IMG/VR virus record: IMGVR_UViG_3300039136_000145
Coordinates: 1 to 39,120 of that record
DNA: 39,120 nucleotides
Strand: one strand, 5' to 3'
Origin: a virus
The notes beneath the pieces are model-generated. The model worked only from the letters and a program-made list of their open reading frames with translations. It was not told the DNA's origin and searched no databases. Both the position numbers and the translations under genes were made by a program. Shown here piece after piece: positions 6,517-38,137 of the stretch (its first letter is position 1; every line of letters starts with the position of its first letter).

Positions 6517-6690
6517 TTAAATATACAATTCCGGATACTCATCTCTACTTAAAATCTTAGCAGCTCTTTTAGGTACCACGGCACTGCCCTCACATATCAA
6601 CACCTTAATCACCTTCCTATCCCTAACTATCTCTGCCTCAAGCTCCACCACATGCCTAACACCTAGGTACTCAATAACCAACCCCTCCAT
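6517..6690 (-). CDS. Tagged small protein (C-terminus EYPELYI)
   Basis: A 57-aa protein on the leftward strand: MEGLVIEYLGVRHVVELE... ending LSRDEYPELYI-stop. It shares the C-terminal signature with the rightward accessory genes 12-38 kb away. Its coding style is different (GTG, GAG, AGG-rich), which argues that the peptide, not the DNA, is conserved. The ATG overlaps the previous stop (TGATG), making a two-gene tagged pair with the neighbour. Body is beta-strand-like; function unknown. Confidence 0.7.
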   Translation of the reverse strand: MEGLVIEYLGVRHVVELEAEIVRDRKVIKVLICEGSAVVPKRAAKILSRDEYPELYI

Positions 6691-6902
6691 CACACATACT
6701 CCTCTGGATATTCTTCGGGATCTAGGTATAGCACTTTATCAGCAGCAACGATCCCTCCAGTACCTCCACTCAGATACTGCAAAAAGAGCAAAATCTCTGT
6801 ACTTTCGGAAGTCTTCATCAACCCCCCTACCCTACATCTAACATCTTTATGCAAAACCACATCCCCCTCTCCAAACTCTACTCCAGCCATATCTTTACAC
6901 AT
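6690..6902 (-). CDS. Tagged small protein (C-terminus EYPEEYV)
   Basis: A 70-aa protein with a small beta-barrel look (VEFGEGDVVLHKDVRCRVGG, then ILLFLQYLSGGTGGIVAADK) and C-terminal DPEEYPEEYV. The ending fits the family pattern loosely (Glu at the variable site, Tyr-Val at the end). It starts inside the last codons of the ParB-like gene (overlap 8 nt), so it is probably coupled to it. A KOW/SH3-like fold is a guess from the strand pattern. Confidence 0.65.
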   Translation of the reverse strand: MCKDMAGVEFGEGDVVLHKDVRCRVGGLMKTSESTEILLFLQYLSGGTGGIVAADKVLYLDPEEYPEEYV

Positions 6903-7605
6903 CAGCTGCTTCCTTATACCGAGCCAACTCAGTCAACACAGCCTTAAACATCATCTCTTTCCCCTCGACAGTAAGCCCTTTATACTCCCCATATCTAGCT
7001 CCGTACCAAGCATACAACGCACTACTCATCGGTAACTCCTCAACACTATACTTAATCCTCTCCTCAAAACTCGAATCCAAAACCACTCCGCTATCTAGGT
7101 TATCTCTAACCACCTTAGCCACAGTATTCACCTTATTAGTAACAATCTCTACACCTTTAGTCACACTAAACAGCCTAACACTATCCCCCTCAAACAGCAC
7201 ACTCACCAAATCCGGCCTATGCTTAGCTACATAATTCGCATTAGCCAACGTCCTCCTAGATACAGCCCAAGCCTTACTCACCTCATCTAGCGTCCCTCTC
7301 CCTCTAACATACTCATAATGAGCACTAATAGCCTTCTGGGTACCTGTCAAATTCCGCCTAGTATTCAAGCTTTTAACGATCATCCTAACCGCCTCCTTAT
7401 CTAGGTCCTCACTCAAATGCAAAACATTTAGTTCTCGCCCTAACTCCTTACAAGCTATCTGCCTGCACCTCCCATCCACAATCTTCCCTCTCCAAAGCAC
7501 TGCAGGCTCTCTCTGCCCATTAACCCTAATATCCTCTGTCAAAGCAATCTGCTCTGCCTCCACCGCTAAAGGAACAATCCCTGCCAACTCATCTATCTCA
7601 TACAT
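6895..7605 (-). CDS. ParB/Srx-fold DNA-binding protein
   Basis: A 236-aa protein. Residues ~20-60 match the ParB nuclease-like/sulfiredoxin fold: IRVNGQREPAVLWRGKIVDG with DGRCRQIACKELG. Residues ~88-130 form an HTH region (TGTQKAISAHYEYV, LDEVSKAWAVSRRTLANANY) as in ParB-like regulators. The C-terminal ~100 residues are unassigned. It is the first gene leftward from the divergent region, directly downstream of the 7629-7657 promoter and the TGCACTAT repeats, so it may bind them and regulate itself. There is no ParA neighbour, so partitioning is unlikely; transcription or packaging control is more plausible. Confidence 0.8.
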   Translation of the reverse strand: MYEIDELAGIVPLAVEAEQIALTEDIRVNGQREPAVLWRGKIVDGRCRQIACKELGRELNVLHLSEDLDKEAVRMIVKSLNTRRNLTGTQKAISAHYEYVRGRGTLDEVSKAWAVSRRTLANANYVAKHRPDLVSVLFEGDSVRLFSVTKGVEIVTNKVNTVAKVVRDNLDSGVVLDSSFEERIKYSVEELPMSSALYAWYGARYGEYKGLTVEGKEMMFKAVLTELARYKEAADV

Positions 7606-7628: not shown

Positions 7629-7657
7629 ATTATACATAGAAATGCACTATTTGTACA
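7629..7657 (-). promoter_or_regulatory. Promoter for the ParB-like gene
   Basis: Reverse strand TGTACA - 17 bp - TATAAT (perfect -10; -35 matches 4 of 6 bases of TTGACA). It lies 24 bp upstream of the ParB-like ATG. One copy of the TGCACTAT repeat (7643-7650) lies in the spacer, so a bound protein would block RNA polymerase. Confidence 0.65.
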
Positions 7658-7736
7658 CTAATCAGGCAAAAATGCACTATATAATTTAGTAGTATGTTTT
7701 GCACTATCACTCAAAATAGTGCAACGGTGCACTCCT
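7641..7736. repeat. Iteron-like TGCACTAT array in divergent region
   Basis: Direct copies at 7643-7650, 7673-7680 and 7700-7707, and a partial copy (TGCACT) at 7729-7734, spaced 30, 27 and 29 bp, close to three helical turns. One inverted copy (ATAGTGCA, 7716-7723) pairs with the 7700 copy to make a TTGCACTAT / ATAGTGCAA inverted repeat with an 8-bp gap. The array is next to a ParB-like gene and looks like an operator or binding array. Confidence 0.7.
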
Positions 7737-12462: not shown

Positions 12463-12471
12463 GTGTCTATC

Positions 12472-12729
12472 ATGAGGTCAGAACTTTTAAAGCTTACACC
12501 AAAGCAACAAGAAATGATGCAAAATATCCCAGTAGCAATACATTACGAAGGGGTATTTGAACATATCACTATACTCTCTGTAGAAGATGATTTTAGTTGT
12601 ATTGGGTTAAGGTGCACTATATGTCCCTTCAACACTAGCTCAACCATTATAACATGTAAACCTGATAAAGAAATCTTAGAAACCCTACGTAATATTGCTA
12701 AAGAACAGCACCCACAACTCTTTATATAA
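12472..12729 (+). CDS. Tagged small protein (C-terminus QHPQLFI), four cysteines
   Basis: An 85-aa protein. ATG 12472 is chosen because it has AGG 8 nt upstream; a GTG at 12463 is also in frame. It has SCIGLRCTICPF in the middle, a possible metal- or disulfide-binding cluster, and ends NIAKEQHPQLFI, the only copy with Gln instead of Glu after the proline. It is isolated, ~5.5 kb from the next tagged gene on this strand. Confidence 0.65.
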   Translation: MRSELLKLTPKQQEMMQNIPVAIHYEGVFEHITILSVEDDFSCIGLRCTICPFNTSSTIITCKPDKEILETLRNIAKEQHPQLFI

Positions 12730-15650: not shown

Positions 15651-15722
15651 ATGCATAAACAAATCATAGATAAACAACTATATAACATAACCAAAGAAAA
15701 AAAAAATGATCAAGATAGATAA
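15651..15722 (+). CDS. Short ORF leading into an A10 tract before the STG-repeat gene
   Basis: MHKQIIDKQLYNITKEKKND plus QDR-stop (23 aa). It has a good ribosome-binding site (GAGGG, 6 nt spacing), whereas the repeat gene's own ATG (15706) lies inside the A10 tract (15697-15706) with no SD. Removal of one A (A9) joins this frame to the repeat frame. It may be the true 5' end of the repeat gene, reached by slippage, or a leader whose translation supplies ribosomes to 15706. Confidence 0.5.
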   Translation: MHKQIIDKQLYNITKEKKNDQDR

Positions 15723-17849: not shown

Positions 17850-18044
17850 ATGTCTAAGAATAAATGGCAACATAAACTAGATGCTCACACAAAAAAGAAA
17901 CCTGGGAAACAAGATTCTTTTGTCTACATCACTATACCTCTTACATATACAGAAGATGATGAAGAAGACCTGGCTTACTACAGGTCTATGGCTAATGAGT
18001 GTGCTTTAGAGCATCAAATGGGGGGCACAAGTGAATTCTACTAA
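17850..18044 (+). CDS. 64-aa protein, unknown
   Basis: MSKNKWQHKLDAHTKKKPGK... basic start, then FVYITIPLTYTEDDEEDLAY and a short helix with one Cys. SD AGGAGTAAGCT. Its last 14 nt overlap the next frame. No tag. Confidence 0.6.
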   Translation: MSKNKWQHKLDAHTKKKPGKQDSFVYITIPLTYTEDDEEDLAYYRSMANECALEHQMGGTSEFY

Positions 18045-18270
18045 TCTATATAAGCTATACATGTATACAAAATATCGTTCATACTTTATAACTTATAAAG
18101 GTAAAAGAACCTACTGTCACCCCTCTATAAAAAAAGTTGTAACAATTACCGGTTTTCCTGTAAAGGAAGAAGATAGGCCTTTTTTTGACCATACAGAACT
18201 TATCCTAGAATCCACTAAACCAATAACCTTAAATAATATAAAAAAGCACTATCCAGAGCTACTTGTATGA
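18031..18270 (+). CDS. Tagged small protein (C-terminus HYPELLV)
   Basis: A 79-aa frame from a GTG at 18031; an ATG at 18061 (MYTKYRSYFITYKGKR...) would give 69 aa, and neither has a clear SD. It is beta-rich, with VTITGFPVKEEDRPFFDHTE. The end STKPITLNNIKKHYPELLV matches, over ~15 residues, the endings of 19184 and 19522 (PITLxxIE..xPELL), so these three share more than the terminal six residues. ATGA overlap with the next gene. Confidence 0.65.
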   Translation: MNSTNLYKLYMYTKYRSYFITYKGKRTYCHPSIKKVVTITGFPVKEEDRPFFDHTELILESTKPITLNNIKKHYPELLV

Positions 18271-18533
18271 AAACTATTATATTTTTACTATCTATACTAT
18301 ATACCTCTAGCTCTTATGCAGATTACCAAAATGAAGCATTAGAGCATGAATGCTTACACCAGCTATACCTAAAAAACGGTAAAGCTCCTTATAAAAAACT
18401 AGGGTCTAAATACACTGATTCTTATGGTATCGCTAAAGTAAGTTACGCAAACAAAACCTATAAATGCCATTTTAAAAAAGTAAGAAAACGTTACGAACTA
18501 AAGGAGGTGTTATATGGAATATCGGTTCTATAG
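18267..18533 (+). CDS. Secreted small protein with signal peptide
   Basis: An 88-aa protein beginning MKTIIFLLSILYTSSSYA, a classical Sec signal with probable cleavage after SYA, giving a ~70-aa periplasmic product. The mature part is basic and has two cysteines (HECLHQ and YKCHFKK) that could form a disulfide. Its start overlaps the tagged gene upstream (ATGA), and the strong SD AAAGGAGGTG for the next gene lies in its last codons. It could act in the envelope, for exclusion or lysis timing; unknown. Confidence 0.7.
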   Translation: MKTIIFLLSILYTSSSYADYQNEALEHECLHQLYLKNGKAPYKKLGSKYTDSYGIAKVSYANKTYKCHFKKVRKRYELKEVLYGISVL

Positions 18534-18732
18534 GTATGAAAATGCTATAGCAGTACTAACATACCACAAAGTACGTTATACAATGTATAGGAGCTACCAA
18601 AAAGCACTAGATTCCTTTCTAGATTACTCTTGGGAGTACAGAGAAGTAGATTGTGTAACTGCTATAAATACTTGGAATCAAGAACCTTTACTGAAGATAA
18701 CAGAAAAGTCTCATCCAGAATATTTTATCTAA
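18514..18732 (+). CDS. Tagged small protein (C-terminus SHPEYFI)
   Basis: A 72-aa Tyr/Arg-rich protein (MEYRFYRYENAIAVLTYHKV, YTMYRSYQKALDSFLDYSWE) ending LLKITEKSHPEYFI. It has the strongest SD in this region (AGGAGG) and overlaps the secreted-protein gene by 20 nt. Cytoplasmic by sequence. Confidence 0.7.
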   Translation: MEYRFYRYENAIAVLTYHKVRYTMYRSYQKALDSFLDYSWEYREVDCVTAINTWNQEPLLKITEKSHPEYFI

Positions 18733-19183: not shown

Positions 19184-19525
19184 ATGTATATACTTATTAA
19201 ATTAATGAACAGCCCTATATACAGTATTCCAGAAGGAACTTCTGATAATGTTAGATATACTTATTACGGCTGGTCAAAAGATATAAAAACTGCAATAAAC
19301 AATAAGTCTTTTACTACTATATCTTCTTTATACCTACTACATCCAAAAGAAGCAAAAGCATATATCGACCTAGGTCTTCCTACTACCGGAGAAGATTGTT
19401 ATATACCACTAGAAAACTGGATAAAATTCTTAGAGATGGTAGATAAGATTAAGGTAATTATAAAGCAAGAAACGCCTATCACATTAAGACAGATAGAAAC
19501 GTACTACCCGGAGTTATTATTATGA
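19184..19525 (+). CDS. Tagged protein (C-terminus YYPELLL), paralog of 19522
   Basis: A 113-aa protein: MYILIKLMNSPIYSIPEG..., YYGWSKDIKTAI, and an end VIIKQETPITLRQIETYYPE then LLL. The GW motif and the last ~25 residues match the next gene (WYGWASKIP; PITLTQIETDHPELLI), so the two are tandem duplicates. No clear SD. ATGA overlap with the next gene. Confidence 0.7.
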   Translation: MYILIKLMNSPIYSIPEGTSDNVRYTYYGWSKDIKTAINNKSFTTISSLYLLHPKEAKAYIDLGLPTTGEDCYIPLENWIKFLEMVDKIKVIIKQETPITLRQIETYYPELLL

Positions 19526-19869
19526 CAGAAGATAATGTATATTTAATATACGTAACTACTAACACTCCTGAACAAGAATACAACTATACTATGCTTAGCG
19601 GTAAGCTAGATAGTGAGAATATTATGTGGTATGGTTGGGCTTCTAAAATACCTGTATTACTACGTCGTGTAGGCGAGCCAGAAACACTCGTCTATGCTGA
19701 TATACCTGATAATAGGATTACTGAAAACATACCGCCAAACAAACCTATCCACTTATCTCAATGGTTATCAGAACTCGAACACTCTAAAGAACTAAAGCTA
19801 GTAATAATACAAGAAGAACCTATAACTTTAACCCAAATAGAAACAGATCATCCCGAACTATTAATATAG
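19522..19869 (+). CDS. Tagged protein (C-terminus DHPELLI), paralog of 19184
   Basis: A 115-aa protein: MTEDNVYLIYVTTNTPEQEY..., IMWYGWASKIPVLLRR, then KLVIIQEEPITLTQIETDHP-ELLI. Acidic overall. Translation is probably coupled to 19184 by the ATGA overlap. The body diverges strongly from its twin while the end is kept. Confidence 0.7.
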   Translation: MTEDNVYLIYVTTNTPEQEYNYTMLSGKLDSENIMWYGWASKIPVLLRRVGEPETLVYADIPDNRITENIPPNKPIHLSQWLSELEHSKELKLVIIQEEPITLTQIETDHPELLI

Positions 19870-19877: not shown

Positions 19878-21104
19878 ATGACAGACGAAAAATTTGGATT
19901 TGAAGAAGCTTTAGCTAACATGGCTACTGCATCTAGTTCCTATCACAAAGAGTATGTATTTTATGCTCACCTTATTTCACAGTGTCGTGTAACATACGAT
20001 CCAAAACTAGGGGTGACTGAAGAGGACCCTGAAGGTACTCCATGTGATGTAAACTTTATGCATGACCATTACAATCTATTCATTAACCCTACCCTATTTA
20101 ATCAGATGCCTTTAACACATCGTATGGGTACTTTAAAACACAATATGTTACATATCCTATACGATCATGTAACTCGTTTAGAAGGACGTGATGTAAAGAA
20201 ATTCCAAAAAGCTACAGATTGCGCTATTAACCAGCATATCAATGCAGACCATCTACCTGATGATGCTGTCACACCTAAAAACCTACTAGGTAATTATCCA
20301 GTCTCTGAAAACAAGACAGCAGAACAATACTTTGAGATGCTTCCTGATGAAGACGATAATAATAATGATAATGATGATGATGGGGGTAGTGGTTCATCTA
20401 CAGGTGATCACCAACAATGGGCTGAATCGCAAGGTGAAGAAGTAATCCAACAAGATCTTACAAAGAAAATGATGGAACAAGCTAATGCTGAAACCCAAAA
20501 AGTACAAGGCAATACTCCTTCTCAATATACTGATTGGCTAGATATCTTTAACAATGATAAACAAGTCAATTGGAAACAAGTATTACGTCGTATTGTAGGT
20601 AACCGTAGAGCTAACCAACGTAAAACATTACTGCGTAGAGATAGACGTTCCCCTCACTTCGAACATATCAAAGGTCGTACAAAAGACCGTACTTTTGATT
20701 TATTAGTAGTAGGGGACGAATCTGGTTCAGTATCTGATACAGAACTAGTGCAAGCTATTTCAGAAACAATACAGCTATGTAAAGTAATGAATACAAGCAC
20801 TAGATATATCTCAGTAGATACTCAAGCTTACCCATCAGTAGAGTTAAAAGCTAATACCCGCTCTTTTGAACGTAATGCTCGTGGTGGTACATACATCTCA
20901 AAAGCCTTAAAACAAGCTTCTAAAGAACATCTATCTTATGATGCCTTACTAGTCATTACAGATGGATATTTACATACGTCTGATGTAGAAGCCTTTGCTG
21001 AAGCTAATCGCCCTACTATCTTCTTAATTACCTCAGAAGGACAAATCATGGACCAAATGCAAACAGGTCGTATGAGAGCTATCAAACTAGAGACAGGTGA
21101 TTAG
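19878..21104 (+). CDS. VWA-domain protein with metallopeptidase-like N-terminus (N4 gp25-like)
   Basis: A 408-aa protein. The N-terminal half has RMGTLKHNMLHILYDHVTR, containing HxxxH (H88, H92), as in the DUF2201 N-terminal putative metallopeptidase domain. An acidic Asp/Asn linker (~155-172) follows. The C-terminal VWA-like domain has a MIDAS, VVGDESGSVSD (D280, S282, S284), with AISETIQLCKVMN and LLVITDGYLHTSD. Such proteins pair with MoxR-type ATPases as chaperones; the ATPase is two genes downstream. The N4 homologues are gp24/gp25, with the order reversed here. Confidence 0.82.
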   Translation: MTDEKFGFEEALANMATASSSYHKEYVFYAHLISQCRVTYDPKLGVTEEDPEGTPCDVNFMHDHYNLFINPTLFNQMPLTHRMGTLKHNMLHILYDHVTRLEGRDVKKFQKATDCAINQHINADHLPDDAVTPKNLLGNYPVSENKTAEQYFEMLPDEDDNNNDNDDDGGSGSSTGDHQQWAESQGEEVIQQDLTKKMMEQANAETQKVQGNTPSQYTDWLDIFNNDKQVNWKQVLRRIVGNRRANQRKTLLRRDRRSPHFEHIKGRTKDRTFDLLVVGDESGSVSDTELVQAISETIQLCKVMNTSTRYISVDTQAYPSVELKANTRSFERNARGGTYISKALKQASKEHLSYDALLVITDGYLHTSDVEAFAEANRPTIFLITSEGQIMDQMQTGRMRAIKLETGD

Positions 21105-21105: not shown

Positions 21106-21394
21106 ATGATAGTAGATATACATTTGACAAAGAGTGGAGAGCACTTACATTTACGTGTAGTAGCACAACCTCCTTATGACGGTCTAGCTAATAAAAATAA
21201 CCCTTACCGACAATTACTAGATAGTAAAAAAAGGTATATATAAAAACTTAATAGAAAAATTAAAACCTCTAATACTAGAACAGGAAAGAGGTATCAAACA
21301 TCCTTACGTACAATCCCTATTAGCAAAAAATAGCCTAGAAACACTTCAACTATTTAAACAGGCTAGAAAAACAAATCCGGAATATTTTATATGA
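21106..21394 (+). pseudogene. Tagged gene interrupted by frameshift at A7 (C-terminus TNPEYFI)
   Basis: ATG 21106 opens a 45-aa frame (MIVDIHLTKSGEHLHLRVVA...) that stops at 21241. Removing one A from the A7 tract (21226-21232) joins it to a frame running ...KNLIEKLKPLILEQERG... and ending RKTNPEYFI-stop at 21394, making a ~95-aa tagged protein. The end overlaps the next ATG (ATGA), as in intact tagged genes. Mutation, slippage-controlled expression or a sequencing indel are all possible. Confidence 0.7.
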
Positions 21395-21648
21395 AACTTA
21401 TAACTAGGTTACACACTCCTGATGGTACGATCAATGAAAACCCATTAACATTAGTAGACTTTACAGAGTTTTCTGAAGATATACAGGAAACTATAATAAC
21501 TCTACTAACACCTGAAGACCAAAAAGCGGTAAGAGACGTATACAAACAAGAACGAGAGCTTATTACTTCAAGACAACAACTTATTGGAAACATTTACAGC
21601 AGAATAACAAACGAAATTAAGATTAAACACCCAGAACACTTTATCTAA
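21391..21648 (+). CDS. Tagged small protein (C-terminus KHPEHFI)
   Basis: An 85-aa protein MKLITRLHTPDGTINENPLT... with a helical middle (FSEDIQETIITLLTPEDQKA) and the end RITNEIKIKHPEHFI. His at the variable position of the tag. It lies directly before the MoxR-like ATPase. Confidence 0.7.
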   Translation: MKLITRLHTPDGTINENPLTLVDFTEFSEDIQETIITLLTPEDQKAVRDVYKQERELITSRQQLIGNIYSRITNEIKIKHPEHFI

Positions 21649-21661: not shown

Positions 21662-22951
21662 ATGAACATTAAACAAGTATTTAACTTAATTCAAGAAGCG
21701 GATGCGGTAGATCACGTACCTCTAATTGAATCATTACACGGTATTGGTAAATCAACAATTTGTGAAACCTACGCTCGTGAAAAAAACCTTCATTTTGAAC
21801 CGTTAATCCTATCCTTAATGGATATTGGAGATCTTATCGGTATTCCTCGTACTACTCAAGTAGGCGGACAAACAACAACTGTATGGGCAGCGCCAGATTG
21901 GTATTCACGTATCGTAAACGCAGCTTGGCCTACAGAAATGCCTATTGACCGTTTAAAGTTTGTAGACACAGGTTTATACGATCTAGTAAAAAATCTAGCT
22001 ACAGAAATGATTAAACGTGAGAAACTAAACGAGCTATATTGCCAATTCTACAAGCTACCATCTGACGAACTACAATTACTCCGTCAAGAAAATGTAGTAT
22101 ACCTAGATGCAAAACGTTCTGTACTATTCCTAGATGAATTTAACCGTTCACCTAGTGATGTATTAAACGCCTCGTTACAGCTAATCCTAGAAAAACGTTT
22201 GCATACACATATCTTACCTAGAGTCGGTGGTAAAGATACATTCATCGTATCAGCAATCAACCCTTCTGACGGTGATTATACAGTAGTAGACTTTGATCCA
22301 GCCTTATTAGACCGTTTTGTACAATGCAACCTAGATCCAGATACAAATGCCTGGTTATCATGGGCTAACGACAACAACGTAAATGAAGTAGTACGTGACT
22401 ACTTAACAGAGAACCCATCAAAACTACACTTTGTACCTAAAGATGGTAAGAAAGGCTCTTCACCACGTTCATGGACTAGATTAGCCTCATACCTAGACAG
22501 TATTAATAACAAACCTACTGAGACCACTTCATACTACTTAAAAGGTATTATCGGTGAATCACTAGCAGCAGAATTCTTACTATTCTTACAAGGTTATGCT
22601 CGTTCTATGTCAGTAGAAGAGATTCAAGAAATTGTAGAGAAGAAAGCAAAACGTGTTAAAGACATCGAAAAACTAGGTGCTCATGTAGGTAAAGCTATCG
22701 ACAAGGTAGAGGCTATTAAAAAAATGGAGTTAGCCCACAACCTGCAAAAGGCTTATACCGATGTAAAAGATGCTTCAGAAGCATTACCATACCTAGCTTA
22801 CTTATACGGGTTGCCTCTAGAAAACTTAACAGCCTTCTTAACAAATCTAAAATCAGACAATCAAACTGCGTTCCAGCAACTAGTGGCTTTTGATGGAGAA
22901 TTGAATAGTAAAGGTTTATTCCGAAAAATTGTAACTAAGGTAGCAAGCTAA
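21662..22951 (+). CDS. MoxR-type AAA+ ATPase (N4 gp24-like)
   Basis: A 429-aa AAA+ protein with Walker A LHGIGKST (residues 25-32), Walker B VLFLDEFNRS (D158-E159), a following LNASLQLILEKR and a FIVSAINPSDGDY sensor-like segment with ALLDRFVQCNL. A C-terminal helical region follows. MoxR ATPases work with VWA proteins to remodel or insert cofactors into targets; the VWA partner is the 19878 gene. The tagged genes 21106/21391 have been placed between the pair. SD TGGAG. Confidence 0.85.
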   Translation: MNIKQVFNLIQEADAVDHVPLIESLHGIGKSTICETYAREKNLHFEPLILSLMDIGDLIGIPRTTQVGGQTTTVWAAPDWYSRIVNAAWPTEMPIDRLKFVDTGLYDLVKNLATEMIKREKLNELYCQFYKLPSDELQLLRQENVVYLDAKRSVLFLDEFNRSPSDVLNASLQLILEKRLHTHILPRVGGKDTFIVSAINPSDGDYTVVDFDPALLDRFVQCNLDPDTNAWLSWANDNNVNEVVRDYLTENPSKLHFVPKDGKKGSSPRSWTRLASYLDSINNKPTETTSYYLKGIIGESLAAEFLLFLQGYARSMSVEEIQEIVEKKAKRVKDIEKLGAHVGKAIDKVEAIKKMELAHNLQKAYTDVKDASEALPYLAYLYGLPLENLTAFLTNLKSDNQTAFQQLVAFDGELNSKGLFRKIVTKVAS

Positions 22952-24234: not shown

Positions 24235-24474
24235 ATGGCAGCTCCTTACTTACTTACAACCTTCATATACCCTAACGAAACTTGTCTTTACCGAGTGGTA
24301 GATCACACTAATCCAAAAAATCCTATATTCTACCCAAGTCATAAAACTATCTCAGGAGCTATCCGTAACTTTAAAACAAAACCTCCTATCCCTTTTCCTA
24401 AACCGTACACTATAGCTCTACCTTTCTATACTATAGAATCCCTACAAGAAGGGTATCCGGAGTTCTTTATATGA
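24235..24474 (+). CDS. Tagged small protein (C-terminus GYPEFFI)
   Basis: A 79-aa protein MAAPYLLTTFIYPNETCLYR... with a Pro/Lys/Phe-rich middle (NFKTKPPIPFPKPYTIALPF) and the end YTIESLQEGYPEFFI. SD AAGGAGCTCTAT. Its stop overlaps an ATG that now leads only to the fossil tag at 24485. Confidence 0.7.
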   Translation: MAAPYLLTTFIYPNETCLYRVVDHTNPKNPIFYPSHKTISGAIRNFKTKPPIPFPKPYTIALPFYTIESLQEGYPEFFI

Positions 24475-24511
24475 ATATACTAACTACAATCACCCCGAAT
24501 TTTTTATCTAG
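24471..24511 (+). pseudogene. Fossil of a deleted tagged gene
   Basis: ATG 24471 forms the usual ATGA overlap with the previous stop. Only 14 nt later, in another frame, TAC AAT CAC CCC GAA TTT TTT ATC TAG (24485-24511) encodes YNHPEFFI-stop. The start junction and the tag remain but the body is gone and the two are out of frame. It is best read as an internal deletion of a tagged gene. Confidence 0.6.
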
Positions 24512-25440: not shown

Positions 25441-25650
25441 ATGTATTTCGATAATCTTAATATTCACCAAACGGTAGACACAGAATGTAAAGGATTATTT
25501 GATTATTATACAGATATGACTGCAAAAGCTTTTGAAGACGCTATATACAAGCAATCCCTGGAAAAGGTTCTAGAAAAAGAATTTAAGGGACTTACCTTAA
25601 AACAAGTACAAAAAGCTGCTAAAGAGTTATACCCAGAAAAATTTATATAG
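25441..25650 (+). CDS. Tagged small protein (C-terminus LYPEKFI)
   Basis: A 69-aa protein, MYFDNLNIHQTVDTECKGLF..., helical toward the end (LEKVLEKEFKGLTLKQVQKA, AKELYPEKFI). Lys at the variable tag position. SD AAGGACTCTTT. Begins a run of five consecutive tagged genes (25441-26864). Confidence 0.7.
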   Translation: MYFDNLNIHQTVDTECKGLFDYYTDMTAKAFEDAIYKQSLEKVLEKEFKGLTLKQVQKAAKELYPEKFI

Positions 25651-25658: not shown

Positions 25659-25979
25659 ATGCGAGTAAATATCTACCTAGTAGGAACATCTATCGGTTGT
25701 GCTTTAGAGATAGAAGTAGCAAGATATACAGGATGGAGTCACATACAACTAACAGATGACAAAAGCTCTAGACGTAAAGATTTATGCTTTTTACTCACTG
25801 ACCCGTTGTTAGATTTGTCTTCCTCCCCAGACCGGATGTACCAAGACAAGCTAGATGAAGAAGACTACACCAACGTAAGATTACTAGAATCCTTTACTGT
25901 ACAAGAGAAAGACCTAGAAACCAGACTAGTTTATTGGATGTCTGTCGTAGAAGAAAAATACCCGGAGTACTTTATATGA
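25659..25979 (+). CDS. Tagged protein (C-terminus KYPEYFI), paralog of 26293
   Basis: A 106-aa protein: MRVNIYLVGTSIGCALEIEV, RKDLCFLLTDPLLDL, SFTVQEKDLETRLVYWMSVV, ending EEKYPEYFI. The 26293 product is a clear homologue along its whole length (IYLV, DLC..LTDP, SFTVxExDLET). It looks like a small alpha/beta protein. ATGA overlap with the next gene. Confidence 0.72.
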   Translation: MRVNIYLVGTSIGCALEIEVARYTGWSHIQLTDDKSSRRKDLCFLLTDPLLDLSSSPDRMYQDKLDEEDYTNVRLLESFTVQEKDLETRLVYWMSVVEEKYPEYFI

Positions 25980-26284
25980 AACTAGACATATATAAATATG
26001 CAACTATACCTATACTAGAATATGAGATAGACGGAGTAATGGGTATTGCTCATGTAGAAATTAGTATAGAGGACAGTAATATAGATACAGAAAAAGCACT
26101 TAAAAAAGCTCATCAAAGAAACTATCCTACAGACCCATCTATGTTATCACTAAAAGAGTGGGCTCCTAATACAGAATTTATTCATATGGTCACAGCAGAA
26201 GTAAATAATGTTTCGGAAATTCGTGAAGTATTTACTAATACTTTAAAAAACCTAAAAACAACAAACCCCGAACTTTACCTATAG
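25976..26284 (+). CDS. Tagged protein (C-terminus TNPELYL)
   Basis: A 102-aa protein starting at ATG 25976 (in the ATGA junction); an upstream in-frame ATG at 25934 would lie inside the previous gene and is rejected. MKLDIYKYATIPILEYEIDG, SMLSLKEWAPNTEFIH and the end FTNTLKNLKTTNPELYL. Inserted between the 25659/26293 paralogs. Confidence 0.7.
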   Translation: MKLDIYKYATIPILEYEIDGVMGIAHVEISIEDSNIDTEKALKKAHQRNYPTDPSMLSLKEWAPNTEFIHMVTAEVNNVSEIREVFTNTLKNLKTTNPELYL

Positions 26285-26292: not shown

Positions 26293-26625
26293 ATGCGTAT
26301 ATGTATATACTTAGTGGAAACTCATGACAGAAATTACGGTTTAGATATAGAAGTTGCTGGGTACTCTCCTTACACTTTTGCATGTGTAAACACCCACACA
26401 CCACGATCACATGCTGATCGTGCTAATCTATGTGATGTACTTACCGACCCTTTTTTACGTTACAATACACCTCTCGAATCTTTATACAGTTATAAAGTAA
26501 AAGATGAAGAGTACGTTAACGTAACATTAATAGACTCTTTTACAGTACATGAAACAGATCTAGAAACTAAGTTACTGTACTGGCTAGACAACGTTACTTC
26601 TATATACCCTGAGTTATTCCTATGA
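26293..26625 (+). CDS. Tagged protein (C-terminus IYPELFL), paralog of 25659
   Basis: A 110-aa protein: MRICIYLVETHDRNYGLDIE, RANLCDVLTDPFLRY, DSFTVHETDLETKLLYWLDN, ending TSIYPELFL. Duplicate of 25659. A perfect 8-bp inverted repeat (CACGATCA/TGATCGTG, 26402-26422) lies in the coding sequence and may be incidental. ATGA overlap with the next gene. Confidence 0.72.
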   Translation: MRICIYLVETHDRNYGLDIEVAGYSPYTFACVNTHTPRSHADRANLCDVLTDPFLRYNTPLESLYSYKVKDEEYVNVTLIDSFTVHETDLETKLLYWLDNVTSIYPELFL

Positions 26626-26864
26626 ATATATATACACTTTACGATAGCTATGACGTATCACGCCTGCCTTTTATATGTTCAGGCAATAACTGTCTATTTA
26701 TACCTTACTTGTTGTATGGACGTATAGAAGAAACAATAAATCAGCTTGATGCTGGCTGGTCTAAGGAAATTCTACCTACATATGCACCTATAGCTACAAT
26801 TCAATCTACATCAGAAAACTTCCTCCAAACACTCCAACAAGAATACCCAGAACTATTCCTATAA
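26622..26864 (+). CDS. Tagged small protein (C-terminus EYPELFL)
   Basis: An 80-aa protein: MNIYTLYDSYDVSRLPFICS, GWSKEILPTYAPIATI, ending NFLQTLQQEYPELFL. Shares the Gly-Trp-Ser-Lys element with 19184. Last of the five-gene tagged run before the primase/ATPase gene. Confidence 0.7.
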   Translation: MNIYTLYDSYDVSRLPFICSGNNCLFIPYLLYGRIEETINQLDAGWSKEILPTYAPIATIQSTSENFLQTLQQEYPELFL

Positions 26865-29139: not shown

Positions 29140-29430
29140 ATGAATGATGGCGCAACAATATACTTAATACAAAGACTTGACACCAACTCTTTTGCATTTT
29201 TTTACACTGGTCTTGATCATTGTTGTTGGTTTTTAGGAGGCTCTATCTACGAAAGTCTTGAGTATATAGACGATACTCAAGAAGATTTTAAAGATCGAGT
29301 ATCCTACAAAATTAAAAGCCTGCAAGACTATATGAACATTTCAAATATACCTCTACAGGTGTTAAAAACCTTTAATGAAATACCTACTATAGAGTACTTA
29401 GAGGATAACTACCCAGAGGTACTCTTATGA
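29140..29430 (+). CDS. Tagged protein (C-terminus NYPEVLL), paralog of 29427
   Basis: A 96-aa protein: MNDGATIYLIQRLDTNSFAF..., a Cys pair HCCWFLGG, and the end PLQVLKTFNEIPTIEYLEDN-YPEVLL. The last ~26 residues align with the next gene (PLKILATFDQLPPVEEIKST). ATGA overlap. Lies between the primase/ATPase and the nuclease. Confidence 0.7.
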   Translation: MNDGATIYLIQRLDTNSFAFFYTGLDHCCWFLGGSIYESLEYIDDTQEDFKDRVSYKIKSLQDYMNISNIPLQVLKTFNEIPTIEYLEDNYPEVLL

Positions 29431-29711
29431 AAACATATATAGTAAAAGTAGAGGAATGGAATAAAACAGGTCTTCTTATAATTATAGGTGAAAGGGAAGG
29501 AAGCAGGTGGGAATTTACTTTTAAGAATTTTAAAGATAATTTACAAAAAATAAAGAAAAGACTAGAAGACAAAGCTTACACATCAAATAATATACGATCT
29601 ATAAGTGATTTTAGAAATCGCTTAGGCAAGCCATTAAAAATTTTAGCCACTTTTGATCAATTACCCCCAGTAGAAGAAATAAAATCAACCTATCCGGAGC
29701 TATTTATATGA
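29427..29711 (+). CDS. Tagged protein (C-terminus TYPELFI), paralog of 29140
   Basis: A 94-aa basic protein: MKTYIVKVEEWNKTGLLIII, FTFKNFKDNLQKIKKRLEDK, PLKILATFDQLPPVEEI ending KSTYPELFI. Lysine-rich body, unlike its acidic paralog 29140, although the ends match. ATGA overlap with the nuclease gene. Confidence 0.7.
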   Translation: MKTYIVKVEEWNKTGLLIIIGEREGSRWEFTFKNFKDNLQKIKKRLEDKAYTSNNIRSISDFRNRLGKPLKILATFDQLPPVEEIKSTYPELFI

Positions 29712-30536: not shown

Positions 30537-30836
30537 ATGAAATACCTAGATAGACACGTATACCAAACCCAATGGGACGAACAGGGCTATACCTACTTTA
30601 ACTACGTATCCTACAGAGGATCTGAGTTTTACCACATAGCTATCGCCACTGACGACCCTCATTTTGGTAGGCCAGATACGCCAGAAGAGGTGGACAGCTT
30701 CACAGAAGACGACGCTGGTACGTATACCGAAAAGATGTCTCCTTGTAATTATGAACCTCACTTCGTAAAAGACTTGGGCCATGTAGGCGATGTCTACCCT
30801 TACCTGCGTACTACTCACCCTGAATATTTCATTTAA
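30537..30836 (+). CDS. Tagged protein (C-terminus THPEYFI)
   Basis: A 99-aa aromatic- and acidic-rich protein: MKYLDRHVYQTQWDEQGYTY, SYRGSEFYHIAIATDDPHFG, GDVYPYLRTTHPEYFI. Single Cys. It starts 1 nt after the nuclease stop and opens a run of four tagged genes (30537-31974). Composition is slightly more GC-rich than neighbours. Confidence 0.7.
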   Translation: MKYLDRHVYQTQWDEQGYTYFNYVSYRGSEFYHIAIATDDPHFGRPDTPEEVDSFTEDDAGTYTEKMSPCNYEPHFVKDLGHVGDVYPYLRTTHPEYFI

Positions 30837-30847: not shown

Positions 30848-31234
30848 ATGGGCTATTGCTCTACTGTTCACCTTACCTTTCCGACAGAAAAGCTTCCAGA
30901 AGTCTATAGCTTACTTCAAGAAAATAACCTAATCTATTGGATTTCTTCTGACGTACTTACCCTAAACTCCGTCACTACCTTCGTTATCGAAGACATAAAG
31001 TGGTACTCATCTTACGATGAAATAGCCGCAGTAGAAAACTATGCAGCAGACAATAGTACTTGGTTCTCCCTCTTACGTGTAGGAGAGGATGCAGCGGATA
31101 TAGAACACCTAGGTTTAGATCCTTGTGAATATGATATCTATGCTTACACAGAAATAAATAACCCTGGATCTCCAGAGTCTCTATCCACTGTAAAGGCACA
31201 ACTCCAAACCACCAACCCCGAACTTTTCTTATAG
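30848..31234 (+). CDS. Tagged protein (C-terminus TNPELFL), MGYC family
   Basis: A 128-aa protein beginning MGYCSTVHLTFPTEKLPEVY, with FVIEDIKWYSSYDEIAAVEN and the end KAQLQTTNPELFL. The MGYC start and IKWYS element are shared with the next gene, so they are divergent paralogs. SD AAAGGAGTTACTT. Confidence 0.7.
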   Translation: MGYCSTVHLTFPTEKLPEVYSLLQENNLIYWISSDVLTLNSVTTFVIEDIKWYSSYDEIAAVENYAADNSTWFSLLRVGEDAADIEHLGLDPCEYDIYAYTEINNPGSPESLSTVKAQLQTTNPELFL

Positions 31235-31243: not shown

Positions 31244-31591
31244 ATGGGATACTGTACAGACTTTACCCTAGAAGTGGTAAATGGCCCTTCAATAATAGAA
31301 TCACCCTCATCAGAGTTCAGAGACAGATTCTATAATCTAACAGGTTATAATGTACACAATCTAGACTATATAAAGTGGTACTCTGCAGAGAGTGATATGA
31401 AAAAACTATCTCTTCACTACCCTGACGTAGTATTCTGCTTAGAAGGTCAAGGAGAGAACCATGACGACTTTTGGGTTATATATATATGCAACGGTCACAT
31501 ACAAAATGCAAATAGAAGAATAGTAGAGGATCCAATAGACTTCTCTCAACTAGATAATTACGATAAAAAGTATCCAGAGTATTTATTATGA
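31244..31591 (+). CDS. Tagged protein (C-terminus KYPEYLL), MGYC family
   Basis: A 115-aa protein: MGYCTDFTLEVVNGPSIIES, YIKWYSAESDMKKLSLHYPD, VVFCLEGQGENHDDFWVIYI, CNGHIQNANRRI. I recognise this WY...DMxxLSxxYPDVxFxLxGxGE pattern from a small conserved family in phages and bacteria with unknown function, in which the C-terminal tag is not part of the usual domain. So an ordinary domain seems to have gained the tag (DNYDKKYPEYLL) here. Confidence 0.72.
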   Translation: MGYCTDFTLEVVNGPSIIESPSSEFRDRFYNLTGYNVHNLDYIKWYSAESDMKKLSLHYPDVVFCLEGQGENHDDFWVIYICNGHIQNANRRIVEDPIDFSQLDNYDKKYPEYLL

Positions 31592-31974
31592 ACCTGTCTA
31601 GCATGACCCATAAGTTACACTTACAAGGTATTCAAACCGATATGTCAGGTACTCTTATTAAAGTAGGGGATACCGTACTCTGTAAAGGTTACTATTCTTT
31701 AGATAAAGATACATTAGGTACTGTTCTAAAAATAAATAAAAAGTCCATTATAGTAAGTATAAAAACTAAAGTATTGAAATACGGAGAGTACCACCCAAAA
31801 CCTCTTGGGTATGTAGGTTATTGGGATTGTTACCCTGATAAACATCCAGTAGAGCGTATACAAAAATTAAAACGTTGCGGTATGGACGTTCTTATAGTAC
31901 CTCCAAATTTAAAACAAACCTTAGAGACGGCAGAGGAAAGGATAGCAGTAAGTTATCCAGAAATCTTTATTTAA
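31588..31974 (+). CDS. Tagged protein (C-terminus SYPEIFI) with SH3/KOW-like barrel
   Basis: A 128-aa protein: IKVGDTVLCKGYYSLDKDTL, GTVLKINKKSIIVSIKTKVL (a small beta-barrel pattern), then a helical end LKQTLETAEERIAVSYPEIF-I. ATGA overlap with the preceding tagged gene. The barrel might bind nucleic acid or protein; unproved. Confidence 0.7.
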   Translation: MNLSSMTHKLHLQGIQTDMSGTLIKVGDTVLCKGYYSLDKDTLGTVLKINKKSIIVSIKTKVLKYGEYHPKPLGYVGYWDCYPDKHPVERIQKLKRCGMDVLIVPPNLKQTLETAEERIAVSYPEIFI

Positions 31975-34572: not shown

Positions 34573-34857
34573 ATGAAAATTACCTTACCCCTATCTACTA
34601 ATAATGATCCTCAGTATATGTACTATCTTCGAGATAACAACATGGGTTACTACCTACGAAAAAATAATGATACATGGCACAACCGAATACCTCGTTACTC
34701 TATAGATAACTATATAGAAGAACTTCACGATCAGCTGTCTGAAAGATGGTGGGAACCTAAGTACTCACGGTGGATTGATGCTAATGTCGTAAAGGTTTTC
34801 GGTACCCATGAAGAAGTACTTAAATGGGAACAGGAACATCCAGGATATTTTATTTAG
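34573..34857 (+). CDS. Tagged protein (C-terminus EHPGYFI)
   Basis: A 94-aa protein: MKITLPLSTNNDPQYMYYLR, DNMGYYLRKNNDTWHNRIPR and EEVLKWEQEHPGYFI. It is the only copy with Gly in place of the Glu of the tag. First gene after the terminator at 34521-34557; no promoter is obvious. Confidence 0.68.
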   Translation: MKITLPLSTNNDPQYMYYLRDNNMGYYLRKNNDTWHNRIPRYSIDNYIEELHDQLSERWWEPKYSRWIDANVVKVFGTHEEVLKWEQEHPGYFI

Positions 34858-34866: not shown

Positions 34867-35061
34867 ATGGAAATATGCAACGAATCTCACCCAGAAATCG
34901 TATACACAAGCTTTTGTTGTCCGTTATGTGAATCATTAGAAAAGTACGACGAACTATCCTCAGAGCTTGAAGAAACTCAATACAACTATGAAACAACTTT
35001 AGACACTTACGCAGAGCTACGCCAAAAAGTAAATAAAGTTAATCCGGAACTCCTATTATAA
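34867..35061 (+). CDS. Tagged small protein (C-terminus VNPELLL), CxxC plus coiled coil
   Basis: A 64-aa protein: MEICNESHPEIVYTSFCCPL, with CCPLCE as a half zinc knuckle, then a coiled coil (LEKYDELSSELEETQYNYET) running to VNKVNPELLL. Its final A is the first base of the helicase ATG (stop/start TAATG). Confidence 0.68.
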   Translation: MEICNESHPEIVYTSFCCPLCESLEKYDELSSELEETQYNYETTLDTYAELRQKVNKVNPELLL

Positions 35062-36533
35062 TGAACCTTACCTCACACCAACAAGACGTAGTAAATTACG
35101 TAACAAGTAACGATGACCTAGTCCTAGTAGAAGCTGTAGCTGGAGCAGGTAAAACAACCCTACTTACAGCTATTGCAGACGCAGTACCTCATAAGAATAG
35201 TGCTTACCTAGCCTACAACAAATCTATAGCCGTAAACTCAAAAAAGAAGTTCCCTTCTACGACGCACTGCATGACGACCCATTCTATGGCTTACCAAGCT
35301 ATCGTGATCCCAAACAAACTTAAAGTAGGTTTCTTTAACTACAAATCTATCAAAGAGCGCATTCCTTACCTAGATAAATGTACAGTCATCGATCTAATGA
35401 AAGAGTTCTGTCTATCTAGGTACGTAACTTACGAAGAGTTCGTAGAAGCTCAAGAAGAGGACATTAGTAAGTACACAAAACATGTAGTCAAATACCTAGA
35501 TCTGATGGACAATGGTAAAATCGAAGTATCTCATGAATTCTACTTAAAAAGATTCCATCTAGCCCTAGCTCATGATGAAATAGAGTACGAACCATTTGAC
35601 TTTTTAATGTTAGACGAAGCTGGAGATTTAAATGAAGTCACTTTAGAAATCTTCCTATTACTACCATCAAAAAAGAAAATTGCTGTAGGAGATCCTCACC
35701 AAAACATCTACTCGTTTAATCATACAATTAACTGTTTTGACGTACTAGAAGGTAAAGGTAAAAAATTCAATCTACCACAATCTTTCCGTGTACCTAGTAA
35801 TATCGCTCCTAAAATCGAATGCTTCTGTAATACCTACCTAGATCCACATATGGATTTTGAAGGTACCTTCACCTCAGACAAAACAATCGAATCTGAAGGC
35901 TACATCACTCGTACTAACGGAGCTTTAATCGGTAAGATGGTAACATTAAATGCTCAGGGAACCTCTTACGGATTAACACGTAAAGCATCAGAAATCTTCA
36001 AATTACCTTTAATGTTAGCAAGTATGAAGTACCAAGGTTTTGTACCAGATCCTTCATATCAACATATCCAAACAGACTTTAACACTTGGACAGAGAAACC
36101 TGATCTTAAAATGGCTCATAAAAGTCCATTTAGTTACATCGCATCATTATACGATGATGACATCCAGTTAGTAAATGCGTGTAAGCTCTTAAACCGCTAC
36201 GGTAAAGGTACTATCTACGATACTTACAAAGAAGCTAAAAACCATGAAGGTAAAAAGCATCCTCTAACCCTAGCCACAGCCCACTCCAGTAAAGGCCTTG
36301 AATTCGACAAAGTTACTATTGGTGACGATCTGAACATGTCTATAGCAGATGTAGTAAACTACGTATCCTCTACTGACAACCCTATCATCACCTCAGAGCA
36401 ACGTGAGTCTCTAAACCTATACTACGTAGCTTGTACAAGAGCCTTAAAACATATTGAGAATGCTACTCACTTAAAACAAACAGCAAAATGTGCAATGAAA
36501 CGTAAACTAATCTGTCCAGAAGAGTTCATATGA
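35061..36533 (+). CDS. UvrD-type SF1 DNA helicase with tag-like C-terminus (N4 gp37-like)
   Basis: A 490-aa 3'-5' helicase-type protein. Motif I VAGAGKTTL (residues 26-34), motif II LMLDEAGDL (182-190), motif III VGDPHQNIYSF (209-219), motif V LATAHSSKGLEFDKVTIGDD, motif VI LNLYYVACTRALKH. It is smaller than UvrD, as the N4 gp37 class is. It ends RKLICPEEFI-stop, the same Pro-Glu-x-Phe-Ile ending as the small accessory proteins, and so is the one core enzyme with the tag. Its stop overlaps the next tagged gene. Confidence 0.88.
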   Translation: MNLTSHQQDVVNYVTSNDDLVLVEAVAGAGKTTLLTAIADAVPHKNSAYLAYNKSIAVNSKKKFPSTTHCMTTHSMAYQAIVIPNKLKVGFFNYKSIKERIPYLDKCTVIDLMKEFCLSRYVTYEEFVEAQEEDISKYTKHVVKYLDLMDNGKIEVSHEFYLKRFHLALAHDEIEYEPFDFLMLDEAGDLNEVTLEIFLLLPSKKKIAVGDPHQNIYSFNHTINCFDVLEGKGKKFNLPQSFRVPSNIAPKIECFCNTYLDPHMDFEGTFTSDKTIESEGYITRTNGALIGKMVTLNAQGTSYGLTRKASEIFKLPLMLASMKYQGFVPDPSYQHIQTDFNTWTEKPDLKMAHKSPFSYIASLYDDDIQLVNACKLLNRYGKGTIYDTYKEAKNHEGKKHPLTLATAHSSKGLEFDKVTIGDDLNMSIADVVNYVSSTDNPIITSEQRESLNLYYVACTRALKHIENATHLKQTAKCAMKRKLICPEEFI

Positions 36534-36832
36534 TATATATAATAGAACTAAAAGGTTTAGAAGATCCGCTCCCTAAATTTTTTGAAGCTGTAGATATTGC
36601 TAGCTACAAAGCTTTCGATACAAATATAAATAAAATATCGTACTGGGAAGATTCTGTAGAAGAAGCACTAAAATATTTAGAAGATACGACCTCTAGATTT
36701 TTTCAAGAAGATATAAAAGAGGTACTTGCTGACGTAGAGTATAAGCCTAAAAATTATAAAATTTATGATATAGACTCTAATTATTTCTCTATATCAGACA
36801 TAAAGTATAAATATCCTGAGCTATTCTTATGA
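36530..36832 (+). CDS. Tagged protein (C-terminus KYPELFL)
   Basis: A 100-aa acidic protein: MIYIIELKGLEDPLPKFFEA, YWEDSVEEALKYLEDTTSRF, ending FSISDIKYKYPELFL. ATGA overlaps on both sides link the helicase and exonuclease genes through it, so all three are probably translated in series. Confidence 0.7.
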   Translation: MIYIIELKGLEDPLPKFFEAVDIASYKAFDTNINKISYWEDSVEEALKYLEDTTSRFFQEDIKEVLADVEYKPKNYKIYDIDSNYFSISDIKYKYPELFL

Positions 36833-37482
36833 TACAATCAACTATTAAAGTTACACACAAATCTACATCTAATGCCTTTATAGCAAAGCAATGGCTAGAT
36901 TCTTTACCAGACTTATTTGCCGCAGATTTCGAGACTGCTGTACGCTATAGACCAGAAGAACAAACAGCTTATCTAGAGCAATCAAAAGACCTTACACTCC
37001 CTATTCAGCAAAGAGCAGAGCTAATCTCAAAAGGAGAGGCTACAGCACTAGATCACCCAAGCCACTGTACGATTACCCATTTTTCGGCAGCTTGGTCAGA
37101 TCACGAAGGATTTGTAATAGTAATGGATAATGATGCAGTAGCTCGTGTGGTACTACGTTTCTTAGTAACCACTAAAAAAACACAAATATGGCACAACCTA
37201 AGTTACGATGCTAAGCACATAATGTACCATACAGGACAATTTCCACTGGTTTACGAAGATACACAAATCCTATCTAAAACTCTACTAAACCATGTAGATG
37301 TGCATAAAGCCTCTACAGGTCTAAAAGAACTAGCAGGCCACAAATACGGAGAATGGGCTGTAAGCTCAGATTACTTCACATTAGATAATATCCACAACCC
37401 CAAACTAATTAAGTATGCTGCCATAGATGCTTGTGCTACTTACTGGTTATGGAACGAAATACAATCTCAAATAGAGGGATAG
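36829..37482 (+). CDS. DEDDy 3'-5' exonuclease (detached proofreading domain)
   Basis: A 217-aa stand-alone exonuclease domain of the DNA polymerase I/DnaQ fold: ExoI AADFETA (D33, E35), ExoII WHNLSYDAKH (N123, D127), ExoIII KYAAIDA (Y196, D200), the DEDDy type. It ends ATYWLWNEIQSQIEG. The polymerase gene that should follow it in one chain starts at 38134, after two tagged genes, so proofreading and synthesis are on separate proteins. An intact A7 tract (37174-37180) lies in it. Confidence 0.85.
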   Translation: MIQSTIKVTHKSTSNAFIAKQWLDSLPDLFAADFETAVRYRPEEQTAYLEQSKDLTLPIQQRAELISKGEATALDHPSHCTITHFSAAWSDHEGFVIVMDNDAVARVVLRFLVTTKKTQIWHNLSYDAKHIMYHTGQFPLVYEDTQILSKTLLNHVDVHKASTGLKELAGHKYGEWAVSSDYFTLDNIHNPKLIKYAAIDACATYWLWNEIQSQIEG

Positions 37483-37484
37483 AA

Positions 37485-37955
37485 ATGACAATACAAGAAG
37501 CCTATGAAGCACAAACAAAACTCTATCTATTAGAGCCTAGTGATATAACATCTACAGGAAAACTGACAGGTGTATCTCTAAGAGCTTACGAGATAGTACT
37601 AGATGAACAAAAGTCTAAATACAGCAGTTACATGGACTATACTCCTAAACCTACAGGCAAACTGTTTACCTTCAAAAACGGTAAAATAGTAGAGACTAAA
37701 ACTTGTGCAAAGCTGAACAATAAACATATTAACCATACTATAGTTACTACTCTAGGAGAATACACACCTAGCTGGTCTGCTTCCTGTTTTACTGATCCTG
37801 TTACAGCCATTGCTGCAAAACAGATGCTTCAAAAGGACCTAATCAACGGGTACAGAAGAGCAGCAGAAAAAACATTAGCTAGATTAGACGCACTAGATAA
37901 AGCCATTCCTTCTATTAGCAATATTGTAGAAGAAAATCCAGAATTGTTCCTGTAA
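37485..37955 (+). CDS. Tagged protein (C-terminus ENPELFL) inside split polymerase locus
   Basis: A 156-aa protein, the largest small tagged one. ATG 37485 follows a GAGGG site; the frame is open upstream to 37431 but that would overlap the exonuclease. MTIQEAYEAQTKLYLLEPSD, KPTGKLFTFKNGKIVETKT, TDPVTAIAAKQMLQKDLING and end ISNIVEENPELFL. Mixed fold, helical C-terminal half. Stop overlaps the next start (TAATG). Confidence 0.7.
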   Translation: MTIQEAYEAQTKLYLLEPSDITSTGKLTGVSLRAYEIVLDEQKSKYSSYMDYTPKPTGKLFTFKNGKIVETKTCAKLNNKHINHTIVTTLGEYTPSWSASCFTDPVTAIAAKQMLQKDLINGYRRAAEKTLARLDALDKAIPSISNIVEENPELFL

Positions 37956-38137
37956 TGAACCAATATAACTTTGAAAGAACTATAGCAAGGCTAAAAGCAG
38001 ACATACTATACCTAAAGAAAGTGTGTATTATGCAAAAAAGCTATAACTTAGACGTTATAAATACACAAGCTTTATTAGAAGATAAAAAACGTACCTTACA
38101 AACTCTCAAAGAAACCTATCCGGAATATTTAATATGA
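37955..38137 (+). CDS. Tagged small coiled-coil protein (C-terminus TYPEYLI)
   Basis: A 60-aa, almost entirely helical protein: MNQYNFERTIARLKADILYL, then LEDKKRTLQTLKETYPEYLI. ATGA overlap with the DNA polymerase ATG, so polymerase translation may depend on it. A minimal example: one helix plus tag. Confidence 0.7.
   Translation: MNQYNFERTIARLKADILYLKKVCIMQKSYNLDVINTQALLEDKKRTLQTLKETYPEYLI

Follow-up and report, generated by a model that had tools for sequence, protein, structure and literature searches.

Many phage proteins almost certainly have one signal in common, a short peptide at their extreme C-terminus, and the selection that maintains this tag acts on the protein, on either strand of the DNA. 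In the window, by which we mean the whole 39,120-base IMG/VR virus contig analysed here, about 26 of the 75 called genes end in the tag. An internal-motif control predicts 0.04 such endings from the frequency of the motif inside proteins, so the tag is not a product of chance.

The C-terminal peptide in the window and in other phages

Judged from its genes, the phage of the window is N4-like (Schitoviridae), with an N4-type terminase, primase and replication gene set. The assignment rests on 58.5% identity between the terminases of the window and of Alteromonas phage AD45-P1 and on a common replication gene plan: the primase is 56.5% identical to the AD45 primase, and the primase, helicase, SSB, nuclease and Sak4-like genes of the window match the AD45 gene plan. 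The AD45 terminase and primase are annotated as N4 gp68-like and gp43-like. One contig, G001 (IMGVR_UViG_3300039037_000119), is 99.96% identical to the window over the common part and extends it. Another relative, G002, encodes a helicase 57% identical to that of the window, has no DNA similarity to it and carries 17 tagged genes. AD45-P1 (L002/L003) encodes a ClpP-like protease (gp065), an SPFH protein and a RIIA-like protein, and the ClpP-like gene is also present in G001, G002, G003 and G006 and, weakly, in pv27. In the window, the gene at 15706-16338 begins with an N-terminal run of five-residue repeats (STGNR/STGYH/STGDC).

The consensus derived from 178 tagged proteins consists of Y (.57), H (.15) or F (.12), then P (1.00), E (.99), L or Y, F (.72) or L (.21), and finally I (.74), L (.15) or V (.11) at the C-terminus, and a weak L/I..L/I-K stretch precedes it. 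The tagged genes of the window are listed in Table 1 together with the other features discussed below. Two tags lie outside complete genes, and the HPEFFI copy is probably the leftover of a deleted tagged gene.

Table 1. Tagged genes and associated features of the window, with positions, strands and the peptides in which the genes end.
Feature	Position	Strand	Remarks
Tagged gene	6517..6693	-	57-58 aa, ends in RDEYPELYI
Tagged gene	6690..6902	-	70 aa, ends in LDPEEYPEEYV; directly 3' of the ParB-like gene
AGAGGAG in tag codons CCA GAG GAG	6698..6707	-	about 8 nt before ATG 6690
ParB-like gene (annotation)	6895..7605	-	matches AD45 gp028 (E 4e-6) and G009 (E 5e-60)
Tagged gene	12463..12729	+	HPQLFI
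Tagged gene	18031..18270	+	YPELLV
Tagged gene	18514..18732	+	HPEYFI
Tagged gene	19184..19525	+	YPELLL; paralogue of 19522..19869
Tagged gene	19522..19869	+	HPELLI; paralogue of 19184..19525
VWA protein with N-terminal zincin-like domain (DUF2201_N + VWA), candidate tag receptor	19878..21104	+	MIDAS DxSxS/T/D intact
Tag at end of 57-codon open frame	21368..21394	+	NPEYFI; no start codon giving at least 40 aa
Tagged gene	21391..21648	+	HPEHFI
MoxR-type AAA+ ATPase (AAA_5), VWA partner	21662..22951	+	Walker A/B intact
Tagged gene	24235..24474	+	YPEFFI
Orphan tag in 24-codon frame	24485..24511	+	HPEFFI; 37 nt after another tag (complete tagged gene)
Tagged gene	25441..25650	+	YPEKFI
Tagged gene	25659..25979	+	YPEYFI; paralogue of 26293..26625
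Tagged gene	25976..26284	+	NPELYL
Tagged gene	26293..26625	+	YPELFL; paralogue of 25659..25979
Tagged gene	26622..26864	+	YPELFL
Tagged gene	29140..29430	+	YPEVLL
Tagged gene	29427..29711	+	YPELFI
Tagged gene	30537..30836	+	HPEYFI
Tagged gene	30848..31234	+	NPELFL
Tagged gene	31244..31591	+	YPEYLL; tagged homologues in G002, G003
Tagged gene	31588..31974	+	YPEIFI; tagged homologues in G002, G003
Variant-tag gene	34573..34857	+	HPGYFI
Tagged gene	34867..35061	+	NPELLL
UvrD-like helicase	35061..36533	+	CPEEFI
Tagged gene	36530..36832	+	YPELFL
Tagged gene	37449..37955	+	NPELFL; tagged homologues in G002, G003, G006
Tagged gene	37955..38137	+	YPEYLI

IMG/VR was scanned without bias for YPEYFI followed by a stop codon and then for YPELFI followed by a stop codon, which yielded further tag-dense contigs. 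These fall into two unrelated groups, N4-like phages (the window, G002, G003 and G006) and T4-superfamily phages, the latter being close in capsid or DNA polymerase to the cultured Vibrio phages Va1, pv27 and phiKT1024. The whole genomes of Va1, pv27, TDDLMA and phiKT1024 each contain 46-50 pattern matches, and 0-2 matches were found in T4, KVP40, the Campylobacter phages F379 and CP21, N4, SBP1, PT11-V19, R22Y and SPO1. With a looser C-terminal count, 73 of about 336 genes of pv27 are tagged (about 20%), and in the tag-rich N4-like records the tag is found on 15-35% of genes. Pattern matches in bacterial and archaeal genomes are isolated and at chance level, apart from two contigs packed with tagged genes (MUGC01000118.1 and MUGC01000139.1, our L255 and L285) from the MAG 'Thermoplasmata archaeon M9B1D', which are probably misbinned phage DNA. 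A tblastn search with the short consensus peptide, too short as a query, gave no match, and literature searches with the tag strings returned acronym matches only. The open-access literature that was searched contained no description of the tag.

The leftward tagged genes and the level of selection

The sequence-only reading had described two overlapping leftward genes ending in EYPEEYV and EYPELYI, and both open reading frames are present as described. The second of them more likely starts with ATG at 6690, giving a TGATG overlap and a product of 57 aa, than with GTG at 6693, and a homologue was found only in the near-identical contig G001 and none elsewhere. Its last codons are CCG GAA TTG TAT ATT TAA, and those of the gene at 6690-6902 are CCA GAG GAG TAT GTG TGA. 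The AGAGGAG formed by the tag codons of the latter gene is the probable Shine-Dalgarno sequence of the gene starting at 6690.

A G-rich coding style beside the ParB-like gene, also remarked on from the letters alone, is borne out by codon comparison with the rightward tagged genes. The genes in 6517-7605 have a GC skew of +0.57, a third-position G of 0.41 and a GAG/(GAG+GAA) of 0.85, with GTG making up 0.47 of the Val codons and AGG 0.54 of the Arg codons, versus -0.09, 0.10, 0.24, 0.05 and 0.15, respectively, in the rightward tagged genes. The leftward genes on the terminase side are also unlike this block in composition (GAG 0.52). The block resembles a leftward operon with the ParB-like gene at its head. 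In the interval from that gene to the first rightward one, the region 7640-7724 contains three TGCACTAT repeats (at 7643, 7673 and 7700) and an inverted copy, ATAGTGCA, at 7716, with a spacing of about 30 nt. This repeat region overlaps the single promoter-like match found by the operon, at 7657-7629, of a kind that occurs at chance frequency here. The ParB-like protein may use these repeats as operator or parS-like sites.

The position after the ParB-like gene is also occupied by a small tagged gene in AD45 (gp027, ending in HPEYFL) and in contig G009 (18587-18802, ending in YPEYFL), in both cases on the same relative strand as in the window. The body of the gene at 6690-6902 is 18-19% identical to these two proteins, for which homology is not significant, and we therefore limit the claim to the same slot and the same tag. 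The last codons are CCT GAA TAC TTT CTA TGA in gp027 and CCT GAG TAT TTC CTT TAG in the G009 gene. The nucleotides at the end of the tag are thus not conserved beyond what the amino acids need, five of five sense codons being different in AD45 and four of five in G009.

From the opposite strand and the codon style, it had been argued that the peptide is selected and not a promoter or a recombination site, and our results uphold this on stronger grounds. The proposed dN/dS check was run on the close pair pv27 and Va1, in which 68 of 70 orthologues retain the tag. At tag positions -5, -4, -2 and -1, pN/pS amounts to 0.05, compared with 0.50 for untagged genes at these positions. Within the tagged genes, it is 0.23 at positions -7 to -16 and 0.29 further up, in the bodies, where indels may slightly inflate the values since the comparisons were right-justified and ungapped. 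Synonymous sites inside the tag still vary (pS 0.21), and it is because a low pN/pS goes together with synonymous change that we consider the tag to be selected as a peptide.

Tags make use of all four Pro codons and of both Glu codons, which likewise favours selection on the peptide. The earlier argument needs one correction, in that the choice among synonymous codons is not free but follows the overlap with the next gene. The Glu codon is GAG where the tagged gene overlaps the next gene by 4 nt and GAA where it does not (odds ratio 41, p = 6e-22), an association that recurs in pv27 (p = 3e-6). At overlapping junctions, which are mostly ATGA, Pro tends to be encoded by CCG or CCA, with CCG enriched, and Pro-Glu codons of this type place GGAG or AGAG 8 nt before the next ATG. 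Synonymous choice is constrained because the tag codons at overlaps double as the Shine-Dalgarno sequence of the next gene, a second function that shapes the synonymous codons only. About half of the tagged genes have no overlap with the next gene, use GAA and end in TAA or TAG, and their tag residues are kept. Among untagged overlapping genes, PE is encoded at the tag site in only 3 of 31, so the ribosome-binding site is not the origin of the tag.

A candidate receptor and a proposed mechanism

The candidate receptor encoded in the window is a VWA protein whose MIDAS residues D280, S282, S284, T338 and D362 are invariant among 20 VWA relatives. Its AF2 model has a pLDDT of 81, and Foldseek matches it to VWA domains, including a NorQD chain. 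The zincin motif of the window protein reads HNMLH, and six other aligned relatives have HEM[LE]H; the catalytic Glu appears to have been lost from the window protein. Given HNMLH instead of HExxH, proteolysis by the zincin domain is unlikely to be the purpose of the machine in the window, and delivery, assembly or extraction would be more likely. In the MoxR-type partner, which matches AAA_5, GIGKS/GLGKS and LDE[FL]NR are conserved in five relatives. A sequence search against solved structures found no relative of the VWA or the MoxR protein. The two genes lie on the same strand with small genes only between them, are neighbours in the N4-like relatives, and lie apart in pv27 (46.5 and 92.4 kb). 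The annotation 'HNH endonuclease' given to the VWA/zincin protein in pv27, AD45 and many Vibrio phages (for example L090:46511-47845 and L002:45137-46459) looks like an error that has been propagated.

Few families are found throughout the tag-rich genomes of the two lineages, namely the VWA/zincin protein, the MoxR ATPase, PhoH, a ClpP-like protease of weak similarity and one family of tagged proteins, and the VWA and MoxR families are the most conspicuous of these. A search of 50,697 phage records found close relatives of the pair (at least 256 bits for VWA and at least 211 bits for MoxR) only in the Va1/pv27 group and in AD45, and the next best relatives reach at most 109 and 81 bits, respectively. 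The close pair is absent from the genomes with 0-2 pattern matches named above. Phages with distant relatives only (AR9, D497 and Atu_ph07) have no tags beyond background. In IMG/VR, the 33 closest MoxR relatives include 23 with tags nearby, whereas of 47 more distant relatives a single one has them (p = 3e-11). Two scans for the tag pattern that were blind to MoxR gave seven multi-tag contigs of at least 50 kb. The pair, or its MoxR, is present on six of them, and the remaining one is a 52-kb fragment from a T4-like genome of probably about 190 kb. Of the two tag-dense contigs mentioned above, the only ones from a blind scan of bacterial genomes, one has the VWA gene amid eight tagged genes. 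Within each lineage, these co-occurrences are not phylogenetically independent.

The relation between tag and pair is loose in one direction. AD45 has a close pair but few tags, and the pair is likewise accompanied by few or no tags in G019, G020, G023 and G038, which could fit a machine with a variable number of clients and could equally fit an unrelated linked gene. Several tag-rich fragments, which are incomplete (10-52 kb), were seen without the pair. Tagged genes showed no significant enrichment near the VWA/MoxR pair, to which they are not significantly closer than to other genes.

We propose, as the best-supported mechanism and with about an even chance of being right, that the tag is a docking handle for the phage MoxR AAA+/VWA pair, a receptor suggested by co-occurrence. 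The peptide [YHF]-P-E-x-[FL]-[ILV]-COOH would be an encoded C-terminal docking tag, usually placed after an amphipathic stretch (L/I..L/I-K). The metal of the VWA MIDAS would take a carboxylate from the client, namely that of the 99% invariant Glu of the tag, and the hydrophobic C-terminus would make a second contact; remodelling, delivery or extraction of the tagged protein by the AAA+ ring would follow. The products of the two leftward genes would be clients expressed from an operon of their own. The placing of a client Glu at the MIDAS and the remodelling by ATP are inferred from CbbQ-CbbO, NorQ-NorD and midasin and would apply here by analogy. More tentatively, and with a chance a little below even, two unrelated phage lineages may run proteome-wide client tagging for an AAA+/VWA machine, with a logic like that of PTS1 or cargo-peptide sorting, new genes being recruited by acquiring the tag.

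In CbbQO, the VWA MIDAS binds an Asp or Glu of the client, and a C-terminal peptide of the client stimulates the ATPase (PMC4660213); NorQD and midasin have been described in similar terms (PMC13036017, PMC8837202). RavA-ViaA, CbbQ-CbbO, NorQ-NorD and midasin/Rea1 resemble the system of the window in combining a MoxR-type AAA+ protein with a VWA protein with an intact MIDAS. They have one or few clients, whereas here one encoded C-terminal tag would serve dozens of unrelated clients, and, unlike their VWA partners, that of the window carries a zincin-like domain. A MoxR-vWA-metallopeptidase pair has been described in jumbo phages, with a tentative link to virion assembly and no tag mentioned (PMC7824862). 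The Atu_ph07 pair and the homologue in Bacillus phage AR9 have the same architecture as the window pair, MoxR plus vWA with an N-terminal metallopeptidase domain, but are distant from it (about 60-110 bits), and pattern matches to the tag number 0 and 1, respectively.

Short C-terminal peptides that occur on unrelated proteins and are read by one receptor are known as PTS1, encapsulin cargo and microcompartment peptides. These do not resemble the tag in sequence, and the tag differs from them in being phage-borne, in its presence on 15-35% of genes in the tag-rich N4-like records and in having a putative receptor. The ssrA degron and the sliding-clamp motif (QLxLF) are also short motifs read at the C-terminus or by a replication hub, and -ELF is similar to -DLF, but the invariant P-E of the tag is absent from both. 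An ssrA-like ClpX degron was rejected, as the LAA-like end is absent and I/L/V follows F/L instead, and so was the clamp motif, the tag having Y/H/F at the Q position and then the invariant P-E. The C-termini of the polymerase, clamp loader, sigma factor and SSB of pv27 were checked and carry no tag.

Other explanations and biological meaning

A docking tag for another partner, such as a host factor, a ClpP-like protease, for which the tag would be a degron, or PhoH, is a serious possibility, although in our estimate it falls clearly short of even. The evidence for selection on the protein suits any receptor, the ClpP-like and PhoH families are common to the tag-rich genomes, and the hydrophobic C-terminus fits recognition by a protease or of the PDZ type. 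A host factor alone is difficult to reconcile with untagged relatives on the same host genera (KVP40 and SBP1 on Vibrio, PT11-V19 and R22Y on Alteromonas). A degron is hard to rationalise on about 20-35% of the proteome, and the ClpP-like proteins of the two lineages are only weakly similar (about 24% identity). PhoH is widespread among phages, which counts against it as the receptor.

The T4 capsid targeting sequence is N-terminal and is cut by the prohead protease. Like the tag, it is one short peptide on several phage proteins, and a tag that sends proteins to the capsid or to a replication compartment would be its counterpart. A single short peptide found on numerous small proteins of diverse kinds does resemble a sorting signal, and a role in virion assembly has been suggested for the jumbo-phage MoxR-vWA pair (PMC7824862), but such targeting is very improbable here, the tag being C-terminal and located on small non-structural genes and a helicase and on no structural gene.

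Equally improbable is descent of the tagged genes from one ancient paralogous family in which only the C-terminus is still recognisable and which would need no single receptor. A few true paralogues are present in the window (Table 1), but clustering of 233 tagged proteins with the tag removed (E 1e-3) gave 195 clusters, 167 of them singletons, and the tagged bodies include small ORFans, BspA-like LRR proteins (L024), nucleotidyltransferase-like proteins (G002, G006, pv27 and AD45) and a helicase. Among homologue pairs across phages, the tag is retained in 35 of 41, and the UvrD-like helicase accounts for four of the six exceptions. It is tagged only in the phage of the window, and its homologues in AD45, G002, G003 and G006 have no tag, which indicates a gain and makes this helicase a candidate for recent tag acquisition.

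In a scan of 10 tagged proteins against Pfam and PHROGs, none exceeded the Pfam cut-off, and the best PHROG match had an E value of 0.008. AF2 modelling of one tagged protein with four homologues was of low confidence (pLDDT 51, and below 50 for the last 32 residues), and in this model the tail is possibly non-rigid. On the T4-like contig L024, three consecutive BspA-like LRR genes (283-2277) are all tag-ended.

That the tag is a DNA or RNA element, a by-product of ribosome-binding sites in overlapping junctions (GGAG, 8 nt, ATGA), would agree with the dependence of GAG, GAA and CCG on overlap and with AGAGGAG lying inside the EYPEEYV tag, but as the main cause it is already refuted by the non-overlapping, GAA-coded half of the tagged genes, the rarity of PE in untagged overlapping genes and the low pN/pS alongside synonymous change, and it remains a secondary constraint.

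Most genes of large phages are small ORFans that offer no functional clue, and the tag marks a large share of them here. Since many ORFans carry one readable signal, they can be grouped and tested together, and the tag system is accessible in the cultured Vibrio phages pv27, Va1 and phiKT1024 and with purified proteins. Should the MoxR/VWA pair prove to be the receptor, a widespread and unexplained phage AAA+ system would gain a function and a list of clients, and our findings would offer a model for how MoxR/VWA machines choose their clients.
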